DNA of 64,000 nucleotides from Halorubrum vacuolatum (GTDB taxonomy: Archaea > Halobacteriota > Halobacteria > Halobacteriales > Haloferacaceae), in NCBI RefSeq assembly GCF_900188065.1, contig NZ_FZNQ01000003.1:62001-126000 (forward strand), in the 5' to 3' direction. The position numbers and the translations under genes were made by a program. The notes beneath the pieces are model-generated. The model made no database searches, was not told where the DNA came from, and was given only the letters and a program-made list of their open reading frames with translations. Of this stretch, positions 57,491 to 61,687 are shown one piece after another (the stretch's first letter is position 1; every line of letters begins with the position of its first letter).

Positions 57491-58588
57491 ATGGAGACGT
57501 TGCTTTTGAACGCCGCCGACGTCGACGAAAACGCCCGAATGGACCTCGTTATCGAGGCGGTCGCCGGCGCGTTCACCGCCTACGAACGCGGTAACGCCCA
57601 GATGCCGCCGAAATCGTATATCGACCTCTCCGAATACAACGGGGATTTCCGCTCGATGCCCGCCTATATGCGGGTCGCTGCCGACGACGCCGCCGGCGAG
57701 GAGGGCTGGGACGCCGCCGGGCTCAAGTGGGTGAACGTCCACACCGACAACCCCGCCGATCACGACCTTCCGACGGTGATGGGGACGATGATCTACTCGG
57801 ACCCCGAGACGGCGTTCCCGCTCGCGATCATGGACGGCACCGCGCTCACGATGAAGCGGACGGGCGCTGCCGCCGCCGTCGCCACCGATCACCTCGCGGT
57901 GCCGGATGCGACCTCCCTCGGGATCGTCGGCGCGGGCGTCCAGTCGTACACCCAGTTGGAGGCGATCGCCGAGATCCGCCCGATCGAGGAGGTCGTCGTG
58001 AGCGACCTCGACGAGGATCGGGTCGCCCGGTTCATCGACACCTTCGCGGACCGCTTCGAGGTTCGTGCGGGGAGCATCGCCGAGGCGGGCCACTGTGACA
58101 TCCTCTCGACGGTGACCCCCGTCGAGGAGCCGATCGTCGGCCCCGACGATGTCGGCGAGCACACCCATATCAACGCGATGGGTGCCGACGCCGAGGGCAA
58201 ACACGAACTGGCCGACGACCTGCTTCTTGCGGCGACCGTCGTTATCGACGACCACGAGCAGTGTACCCACTCCGGGGAGATCAACGTCCCGTACGCCGCG
58301 GGAACGCTCACCGACGACGACATCTACGGCGAGATCGGCGAGATCGTCGTCGGGGACCGACCCGGCCGCGCTGGCGTCGGCGACGCCGCGGGCGGTGGTG
58401 AGCCGGTCGACGTGGGTGACGGAGACGGTGCGAGCATCGGAGACGACGCGGACGGTGTCACCGGCGTCTCCGTCTTCGACTCGACCGGCCTCGCGATCCA
58501 GGACGTCGCGGCCGCCCGCGTCGTGTATCAGCAGGCGGACGCCAACGACAACGGCTACCCGTTCGACCTGATCGGCCTCGGTCGGTAG
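57491..58588 (+). CDS. Ornithine cyclodeaminase / alanine dehydrogenase family protein
   Basis: The 365-residue Rossmann enzyme of the OCD/mu-crystallin family has RSMPAYMR, LKWVNVHTDNPADHDLPTVMG (substrate Lys), MKRTGAAAAVATDHLA, GIVGAGVQSYTQLEAI (NAD+ binding, GxGxxS) and HINAMGADAEGKHEL. It may deaminate alanine or ornithine, or reduce a cyclic imine. An acidic Gly insert (about residues 295-330) departs from the family length. A TTAAATACT TATA precedes ATG 57491. Confidence 0.85.
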   Translation: METLLLNAADVDENARMDLVIEAVAGAFTAYERGNAQMPPKSYIDLSEYNGDFRSMPAYMRVAADDAAGEEGWDAAGLKWVNVHTDNPADHDLPTVMGTMIYSDPETAFPLAIMDGTALTMKRTGAAAAVATDHLAVPDATSLGIVGAGVQSYTQLEAIAEIRPIEEVVVSDLDEDRVARFIDTFADRFEVRAGSIAEAGHCDILSTVTPVEEPIVGPDDVGEHTHINAMGADAEGKHELADDLLLAATVVIDDHEQCTHSGEINVPYAAGTLTDDDIYGEIGEIVVGDRPGRAGVGDAAGGGEPVDVGDGDGASIGDDADGVTGVSVFDSTGLAIQDVAAARVVYQQADANDNGYPFDLIGLGR

Positions 58589-58694: not shown

Positions 58695-60788
58695 ATGATA
58701 CTGTCGGACGCCGACATCCTCGCCCGCCTCGCGGACGGGGACCTCGCCATCGAACCGCTCGATGACATCGATCAGCAGGTCCAGCCGGCGAGCGTCGATC
58801 TACGGCTCGGAGAGCGCTTTCTCGAGTTCCAGCGGACCAACATCCCCTGTATCCACCCGACGAAAGCCGACGAGGTCGGCCAGTACGTGACCGAGACGCG
58901 GGTCCCGGCCGGCGAGGAGTTCATCCTCCACCCCGGCGATTTCGTGTTGGGGACGACGAAAGAGCGCGTTGAGATCCCCGACGACCTCGTCGCACACGTC
59001 GAGGGCCGTTCCTCGCTCGGTCGGCTTGCTATCGTGGTGCACGCCTCGTTGCCCTACGACGAAACGGTGTTCCTGTGGACGCCGGATGAAGGGTTCGGAT
59101 TCTACGAGATCGGCGATATCGTCGAAAACGAACGACCGGCAAGGGCGGTCGCGTTTGACCCGAAGACGTTGAGGGTGAGCACACACCACGTGACAGATTA
59201 TATAATAAATCCGATAAAAAGGATCTACCGTGTGACGCTTGAGTCAGGCCGGGAAGTGCTGGTAACAAAGGATCACAACCTGTTCACGCTCGACGCGAAC
59301 GGGGGTGTTACGCGCATAGCCAGCGAGAACGCTGAGGGCTCCCACGTGATGGTTCCGGGAACGCTTCCTCGATCCCCGACGGAGGAATCGGCCCTCGATC
59401 TGCTCTCACTGTTCGAAGGTGACGACGAAATCATCGTGTACGCGTCCGACGGGATGGGAGACGTTGCGTGGACCGACGACGTGGCGAGCCCATCACGGCG
59501 TCATTACGACTCGCGAGATGCGGCACCGCTATCATGCATCTCCAGTGCGACCGCTCCAAAAAAAGCGGACGTCGCGTTCAAACAGAGCGATTATAGACTG
59601 CCTCGCGACTTGGAGTTGACTCCGGAGTTCGGTTGGGTACTCGGGTTTTATATCGCCGAAGGTTCAGCCCGGCGGAAGCAGGTCCAGTTCGGAAACAAGG
59701 ACGAAGCGCTTCTCGACCGGGTCGAAGAGTGGTTCGAGGGGTACGACGCCAGTATTTACCGACGAAAAGGTGATACCGGCGTCGAGCGACTCACAGTCTG
59801 TTCGGCGCTGTGGTCGAAAATCATCCGTGAACTCGCCGGGTCTGGAAGCGAGAAGGATATCCCGGACCGAGCGTGGAACTGGCCGGACGAAGTACTTCGA
59901 GAACTGCACGAGGGACTCCTCGATGGCGACGGTTCTCGCCGGGAGTCGAGGGATACGCTGTACACGTCGAACGGCTCCCTCGCTAGTGGTGCGATGTATC
60001 TGGCCGCTCGCCTCGGATTGCACAGTTCTACCTACTCCAGAGAGCGCGAGACCTACATCCCCATGAGCGACGTCACGACAAGCGGGATTGAACATGCTGT
60101 AGATACCGCGACTGATCCACACAAACGCGGCCAGTACGTCCCGGTTCCGAGCGAACTGCTTCGCACCTTGCGGAACGAAGCTGGATTGACCATGCGCGAG
60201 GCCGCCGATGCGATGGGCTACTCGTCGAAATCGAGCATTTCAAACGTTGAAAACGGGGAGTACGAAACCGTCAAACGCGACACTCTCCGGCGGTTCCGAG
60301 AGGCATATGCTGCGACTGATGCCAATACGCGGCGTCTCGATCAGATCCTCCGTGAAGATGTTCGATTCGAGGAAGTCGTTAATGTCGAAGAGACGGATCG
60401 TGTCGAACCGACGTACGATCTGGAAGTTCAGCCAAACGGCAGAACGATAGAGAACTTCCTCGGTGGAAAGGGGGGAGTGTTCCTGTCGAACACCGCCGGT
60501 TTGTGCGACCCGGGATATCAGGGGCAGATCACGCTCGAACTCTCCAACCTCGGCACCGCACCGGTCGCGCTCTCGCCCGGCATGCGCGTCTCCCAGTTGA
60601 CCTTCACCGAGTTGCGCTCGCCGGCGGCACGTCCCTATGGCGCGGAACGCGGCTCGAAATATCAGGACCAGGACGGCCCGCAGGCGTCCCGGATCGGCGA
60701 CGACCCGGAGTTCGTGGGCGAGACCGGGGAGACCGATCCGGGGTCCGAGAACGACGCGACGACGGCCGATTCCTCGGAGGGTGGCTAA
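58695..60788 (+). CDS. dcd: dCTP deaminase precursor interrupted by an intein
   Basis: The 697-residue precursor begins [20 protein letters not shown]. The N-extein (1-117) ends [20 protein letters not shown] and the C-extein (600-697) begins [19 protein letters not shown], which joined gives the intact Dcd core. Dcd makes dUTP from dCTP, and the catalytic Glu (QITLELS) lies beyond the intein, so the precursor should be inactive until spliced. The C-terminus is an acidic tail. The stop (TAA) shares one base with the next gene's ATG. Confidence 0.94.
59046..60491 (+). mobile_element. Intein (482 aa) in dcd with LAGLIDADG endonuclease and an inserted HTH
   Basis: It runs from S118 ([11 protein letters not shown]) to N599 (GVFLSN). 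Splicing blocks: A, S118; [14 protein letters not shown] with T191 and H194; F and G, YDLEV...VFLSN. The endonuclease has two LAGLIDADG motifs, [10 protein letters not shown] (acid E322) and LLDGDGS (acid D412). Residues about 485-540 ([31 protein letters not shown]) form a Cro/CI-type HTH. Ser instead of Cys at position 1 and Ser rather than His before the final Asn are non-standard. The +1 residue is Thr. Confidence 0.93.
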
Positions 60789-61687
60789 TGCGGTTCATCG
60801 AGGAGGTCGTCGTCGAGGAGTTCCTCCCGACGATCCGCTCGATGCTCGCCGAGGACCTCCGCGAGCGGGGGTTCACCCAGCGCGAGGTCGCCGACGCGCT
60901 CGGCATCTCCCAGTCGGCCGTCTCGAAGTACGCCCACGGCGACGTCGCCCGCAACGAGCGGGTGGTCGCCGACGAGCGGGTACGGGCGCTCGTCGAGCGC
61001 GTCGGCGCGGGCCTCGCGGAGGGCGATCTCACCCCCGTCGCCGCGCTCGTCGAGATCGAGGTCCTGATCCGGCAACTCGAGGAGGGGGACCTCCTCGCGG
61101 AGTTACACGAGGAGGCCATGCCCGCCCTCGCCGACGTCGACGTCTCGTTCTCCGTTCACGACCCCGACAGCGGCCTGCGTGAGCGGGAGACGACGCTCGC
61201 GTCGGTCCGGCGCGCGCTCCGGACGTTGACGAACGCCTCCGGGTTCGCCGGGCTGATCCCGAACGTGGGCGCGAACGTCGTCGAGTGCCTCTCGGATGCC
61301 GAGACGATCGACGACGTCGCCGGCGTCCCCGGTCGGCTCGTCGATGTGAAGGGCCGGGCGATGATCCCAGGCGAGCCCGAGTTCGGCGTGAGCGAGCACG
61401 TCGCGACCGTGTTGCTCGCGGCCCGCGAGGCGGGCTCGACCGCCCGCGCGGCGGTGAACCTTCGATACGACCCCGAGCTCGTCGAGACGCTCGCGACGTC
61501 ACACCCGACCGTCGAGTTCGACGCCGAGGCGGGAACGGAGGCGGCGGTCCGGGCGGCCGTCGCCGACGCGGAGCCGAGCGAGACCCTCGTCGTCTACCAG
61601 ACCGGCGCGATCGGCGTCGAGCCGATCGTGTACGTGCTGGCACCGACCGCACCGGAGGCGGCGGCGATCGTGAGGGGATTGTTGTAG
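60788..61687 (+). CDS. thiR: HTH-ThiN regulator of thiamine metabolism (ThiR-like)
   Basis: In the 299-residue protein, the N-terminal Xre-type HTH (about 15-60: GFTQREVADALGISQSAVSKYAHG) precedes a C-terminal ThiN domain (about 130-299: GFAGLIPNVGANVVECLSDAETIDDVAGVPGRLVD, GEPEFGVSEHVATVLLAA). This ThiR layout represses thiamine-synthesis genes when thiamine phosphate binds ThiN. Its ATG overlaps the dcd stop by one base, so it is read from the dcd operon. No thi genes are nearby. Confidence 0.9.
   Translation: MRFIEEVVVEEFLPTIRSMLAEDLRERGFTQREVADALGISQSAVSKYAHGDVARNERVVADERVRALVERVGAGLAEGDLTPVAALVEIEVLIRQLEEGDLLAELHEEAMPALADVDVSFSVHDPDSGLRERETTLASVRRALRTLTNASGFAGLIPNVGANVVECLSDAETIDDVAGVPGRLVDVKGRAMIPGEPEFGVSEHVATVLLAAREAGSTARAAVNLRYDPELVETLATSHPTVEFDAEAGTEAAVRAAVADAEPSETLVVYQTGAIGVEPIVYVLAPTAPEAAAIVRGLL

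Follow-up and report, generated by a model that had tools for sequence, protein, structure and literature searches.

The window analysed here, 64,000 nucleotides of the Halorubrum vacuolatum genome, carries a 697-aa open reading frame (58695–60788, forward strand) that encodes a dCTP deaminase (Dcd) interrupted in frame between A117 and T600. The Dcd residues proper are 1–117 and 600–697, and the intervening residues 118–599 form an insert of 482 aa that is translated without a stop from Ser1 to Asn482, closes with GVFLSN and runs directly into the Thr (+1) of the C-extein (TAGLCDPGY; Table 1). Pfam profiles return a split DCD domain and, within the insert, Intein_splicing (PF14890; 6.6e-16), LAGLIDADG_3 (PF14528; 1.4e-12) and an XRE-type helix-turn-helix (HTH) domain (HTH_31, PF13560; E about 1.8e-12 to 3.9e-12), all exceeding the curated cut-offs. 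An original prediction, made from the sequence by itself, had placed an intein in Dcd with exactly these boundaries, and that observation is confirmed, as are the intein blocks and the two LAGLIDADG motifs that it listed; the HTH domain and the loss of the motif-NX histidine go beyond it. The downstream gene (60788–61687, +) begins within the dcd stop codon (TAATG) and resembles an HTH regulator that has an additional domain, possibly ThiN-like, at the C-terminal end. Upstream, the product of the gene at 57491–58588 (+), which we take to resemble ornithine cyclodeaminase/alanine dehydrogenase, is unusually rich in Gly and Asp over one stretch close to the C-terminus, which may represent a small insertion in frame.

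Table 1. Features of the interrupted dcd gene, in positions of the window.
Feature	Position	Strand	Evidence
N-extein of Dcd (residues 1–117)	58695..59045	+	TIGR02274 and PF22769 match residues 2–117/118; alignment to solved Dcd 2qxx and 1xs1
Intein, 482 aa, Ser1 to Asn482	59046..60491	+	Common to 30 other sequences, absent from 66–67 empty orthologues
Ser1, N-terminal nucleophile, codon TCG	59046..59048	+	Invariant 31/31
Asn55, at the motif-NX histidine position of Ser1 inteins	59208..59210	+	Profile alignment; invariant 31/31
Block B TxxH, Thr74 and His77	59265..59276	+	His77 the sole invariant histidine, 31 sequences
LAGLIDADG motif 1, LGFYIAEG, E205	59640..59663	+	Conservation; homology to 2cw7 and 7qss
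LAGLIDADG motif 2, LLDGDG, D293	59916..59933	+	PF14528; conserved
Putative XRE-type HTH accessory DNA-binding domain, intein residues 370–431	60153..60338	+	PF13560; helices in model; purifying selection
Blocks F and G, PTYDLEV...ENFLGG...GVFLSN (Asp458, Glu469, Ser481, Asn482)	60408..60491	+	PF14890 extends to block G; residues invariant
C-extein of Dcd, first residue Thr+1 (TAGLCDPGY)	60492..60785	+	Alignment to E. coli Dcd 1xs1
Catalytic Glu codon, in C-extein	60537–60539	+	Alignment to 1xs1, DNA checked

Among 84,980 prokaryote species genomes scanned, 80 Dcd loci were recovered, of which 13 hold the insert (one as a fragment) and the rest are without it. The window copy and 30 other distinct sequences share one insertion codon, while 66–67 compared Dcd genes are empty there. 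The empty haloarchaeal genes read seamlessly across the insertion point (RSSLGRLA[VI]VVHATAG), from which it follows that the exteins rejoin perfectly at the Dcd core (VVHA and TAGLCDPG), as had been proposed; the profile E-values, together with 30 orthologous insertions, leave no room for chance. When aligned to the E. coli Dcd (1xs1), the insertion point falls at V122/T123, and the intein separates the RSSLGR active-site segment on its N-side from the equivalent of E138, the catalytic residue of the E. coli enzyme, on its C-side, in agreement with the expectation that the insertion parts the catalytic Glu from the rest of the active site. Dcd is single-copy in this genome, where the sole other gene with a DCD fold encodes a haloarchaeal dUTPase (PRK02253, E 8.7e-59). 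With the active site split and no second Dcd in the genome, Dcd activity should depend on splicing.

Judged by its residues and predicted fold, the insert is a class-1 intein of the Ser1/Asn/Thr+1 type whose LAGLIDADG endonuclease has two motifs and whose accessory domain is an XRE-type HTH. Ser1, Thr74 and His77 of block B, and Asn482 are invariant in 31/31 sequences and Thr+1 is present in all members; the occurrence of Ser1 throughout rules out class 2 and class 3. The HINT fold is recovered both by PF14890, above its cut-off, and by the structural model, which matches many solved mini-inteins, 1mi8 among them (Z 20.4, 136 residues). Asn55, Asp458, Glu469 and Ser481 are likewise invariant, and the LAGLIDADG acids are close to it (E205 in 30/31; D293 in 30/31, with one Glu). 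The model, an AlphaFold2 prediction from a 29-sequence alignment (pLDDT 88.4, pTM 0.87), has as its closest solved structure PI-TkoII (2cw7; Z 31.7, 417 residues aligned, 3.3 Å, 22% identity), with the TliVMA intein also near (7qss; Z 30.3, 387 aligned, 21% identity). As both of these carry HTH-like accessory domains (PMC8966425), the architecture of the Dcd intein is a known one. The idea that an HTH in an intein is new is ruled out by the same two structures, and two MCM inteins of the Halorubrum genome also match HTH_3.

The splice residues had been described as non-standard. The residues themselves stand (Ser1, penultimate Ser481 and Asn482, with Thr+1), but the label does not entirely, since Ser1/Thr+1 and the absence of a penultimate His are each known and accepted in class-1 inteins. 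The penultimate His, usual but not obligatory, is replaced by Ser481 in 31/31 sequences; inteins without it can splice, and class-1 membership is not lost because the literature treats the residue as replaceable with compensation (PMC7664689). Also absent is the usual His of motif NX, which, preceded by Arg/Lys, was given by Pasch et al. (2023) as a signature of Ser1/Ser or Thr+1 inteins (PMC10189870). In the profile alignment Asn55, whose preceding residue is Thr, Glu, Arg or Ile, lines up with the motif-NX His of PI-TkoII (2cw7; IRH) and of the Mvu TFIIB intein (5o9i; SRH). Because two sequences examined by Pasch et al. have Tyr or Asn in this place (PMC10189870), Asn55 is a variant and not an exclusion from that subgroup. 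A missing block-F His was dropped as an oddity, ENF being found in PI-TkoII and the TFIIB intein as well.

His77 is the only histidine invariant across the 31 Dcd inteins. Counting against splicing here, the substitution H182Q at the penultimate position of PolB16 and replacement of the NX His by Ala in each of three Ser1 inteins impaired splicing entirely or almost completely (PMC10189870), so that some compensation must exist in the Dcd intein. Other haloarchaeal Ser1-type N-terminal halves keep the RH pair, as VSRH (L129 and L139) or as VIRH (the Ser1 PolB intein of the Halorubrum genome, L117), and IRH also occurs in L143 and L151, in which the first residue may be other than Ser. Among 27 haloarchaeal intein C-termini, 26 read HN and one KN in a motif search that is built on typical motifs and misses variants. 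GQ and GN termini also occur in the Halorubrum genome, and thus even there the Dcd intein is not alone in lacking a penultimate His. The combination of Asn at NX with Ser at the penultimate position was found in the Dcd family only, among the few dozen haloarchaeal inteins sampled. We tentatively suggest, as a possibility somewhat short of an even chance, that the haloarchaeal Dcd inteins constitute a Ser1/Thr+1 subclass that carries out oxyester splicing with one conserved active-site histidine (His77), the NX and penultimate histidines being fixed as Asn and Ser. If true, a one-histidine subclass would imply an unrecognised compensating network, perhaps one suited to molar salt.

We consider it very likely that the insert is an intact and mobile class-1 intein, probably belonging to the haloarchaeal 'dtd' allele already described, with a precursor predicted to splice, an intein predicted to home and His77 as the sole conserved histidine that would help. 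Translation would produce an inactive 697-aa Dcd precursor in which the HINT domain folds, whereupon Ser1 would attack the preceding peptide bond through an N–O acyl shift that yields an oxyester. Passage of the acyl group to Thr+1 would give a branched oxyester, cyclisation of Asn482 would free the intein, and an O–N shift would leave mature Dcd (VVHATAG). With the NX and penultimate histidines replaced by Asn55 and Ser481, His77 (together with Thr74 and Asp458) would be the one conserved histidine left to assist. The window intein very probably splices. The intein, through its LAGLIDADG core and HTH domain, probably cuts intein-free dcd near the A/T codon junction, and recombination would then copy the intein into the cut gene.

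The suspicion that inteins in this gene were already known proved justified. Among the new intein alleles that Soucy et al. (2014) reported from Halobacteria is 'dtd' (deoxycytidine triphosphate deaminase), whose six members are monophyletic (PMC4071816), and the Dcd intein is probably a member of this allele, an identity that rests on gene and taxon: both lie inside the dCTP deaminase of Halobacteria. Where that survey counts six copies, all from Halobacteria, 31 sequences are gathered here, including one from another class, and the residue-level features and HTH domain come from the present analysis. All Dcd intein members found here share one insertion site. PI-TkoII (the Tko Pol-2 intein, 2cw7) resembles the Dcd intein in its Ser1, LAGLIDADG core, HTH-like accessory domain and block-F ENF, but has the NX His (IRH) and ends in VYAH(N) where the Dcd intein has Asn and Ser, and its host gene is different. 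The TliVMA intein (7qss) shares the combination of HINT, LAGLIDADG and HTH-like accessory domain, the last of which was shown to affect DNA cleavage (PMC8966425), although its host is a V-type ATPase. The cyanophage CL131 intein (MG209611) also interrupts a dCTP deaminase, and its excision and splicing were shown in E. coli (PMC6293099). However, it lies seven residues upstream (KSTYAR/CGIIAN vs. VVHA/TAG), with Cys1, Cys+1 and an HNH endonuclease; the distance and the different endonuclease rule out a common insertion and indicate an independent one. Among the open-access papers searched, none described experiments on haloarchaeal Dcd splicing.

Presence of the intein is patchy, extending to 24/391 genomes and 16/86 genera of the class and to a single genome of the 52 in the genus of the window. 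The L124 copy (G417:C15:18460-19872), whose 1.2 Mb host genome falls in a different class of this phylum, occupies the same site with Asn55 and Ser481 and extends the Dcd intein beyond its reported halobacterial range. On the extein tree there are 14 presence/absence changes, eight of them forced by well-supported branches, and the window extein nests within a set of 20 empty genes, almost all from Halorubrum (SH-aLRT 98). The intein tree groups the window copy with Natrialbaceae and one other family (support 96/91), and an AU test rejects a grouping of the window intein with those of L019 and L107, its family neighbours by extein (p-AU 7.8e-5). Patchy presence, combined with an intein tree that contradicts host-family placement, shows that the intein spreads horizontally, and homing is the most likely route by which the window copy arrived. 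Differentiation between occupied and empty genes, which was examined as a check for flank co-conversion, had no steady fall-off with distance from the site. A phage, plasmid or viral-contig vector was dropped as a candidate, as the plasmids and viral contigs searched held no relative of the Dcd intein and the phages searched gave weak matches to the endonuclease region only.

Pairwise dN/dS medians (70 pairs, Nei-Gojobori) are 0.13 for C-HINT, 0.15 for N-HINT, 0.24 for the HTH, 0.28 for LAGLIDADG and 0.43 for the linker, values for which only the ranking is safe, with many dS near 1 and non-independent pairs. Purifying selection appears to act on all domains of the intein. In the L112 copy (L112:705-2102) the LAGLIDADG acids are lost in both motifs (LGFYIAAG, LLDGGG) and all splicing residues are kept; the endonuclease of this copy is likely being lost, a state that the homing cycle predicts.

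These observations bear on three other explanations of the insert. A decaying or cleavage-only intein, poorly spliced in a cell that tolerates the loss of Dcd, would account for the absent NX and penultimate histidines and for an intein GC3 (0.66) far below that of the exteins (0.84). Yet these residues do not vary among 31 sequences drawn from many genera, the splicing part has a dN/dS of about 0.13–0.15, the C-extein is intact and conserved, and the lower GC3 is common to most of the family, all of which make decay very unlikely. The same invariant Asn55/Ser481 pair could instead suggest an active site specialised as a switch on dUTP/dTTP supply that salt or stress would gate, retained because it benefits the host and with its altered histidines tuned to the halophile cytoplasm, and a site that divides the catalytic centre of a single-copy Dcd would suit such a role. 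The patchy distribution (1/52 in the genus), horizontal spread and maintained endonuclease nevertheless fit a selfish element, and we regard the switch as very improbable.

That the 482 residues are a lineage-specific Dcd domain rather than an intein can hardly be entertained, despite a continuous frame and a protein that is fused in all carriers. The original prediction had named an alignment with haloarchaeal Dcd as its check, and segment 118–599 is absent from 66–67 orthologues with a seamless junction, which rules it out as Dcd sequence; moreover, HINT, LAGLIDADG and HTH domains are present, the full-length structural match is to inteins, and the insert would split the active site.

As a mobile element the Dcd intein is thus ordinary, its allele probably one already published, and only the double substitution, fixed as it is, may be new to a specialist. 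It provides a natural family of 31 sequences in which two histidines deemed important for serine-type splicing are replaced and the substitutions fixed, making the Dcd inteins a test case for which histidines are really needed in oxyester splicing and a candidate intein without cysteine at the splice junctions for work in high salt.

The Halorubrum genome is itself intein-rich, with at least eight other inteins at loci L113–L117 (contigs C64, C48, C41, C42 and C43): two in RIR1, two in MCM, two in PolB, one in DP2 (a mini-intein ending GQ/C) and one in GyrB. Both MCM inteins (L115) have an XRE-like HTH_3 upstream of block F, as in the Dcd intein, and the second of them, at 641 aa, has extra sequence around the HTH. 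In the first RIR1 intein (L113), two Homeodomain-like HTH_23 repeats precede the LAGLIDADG part, within the N-terminal half.
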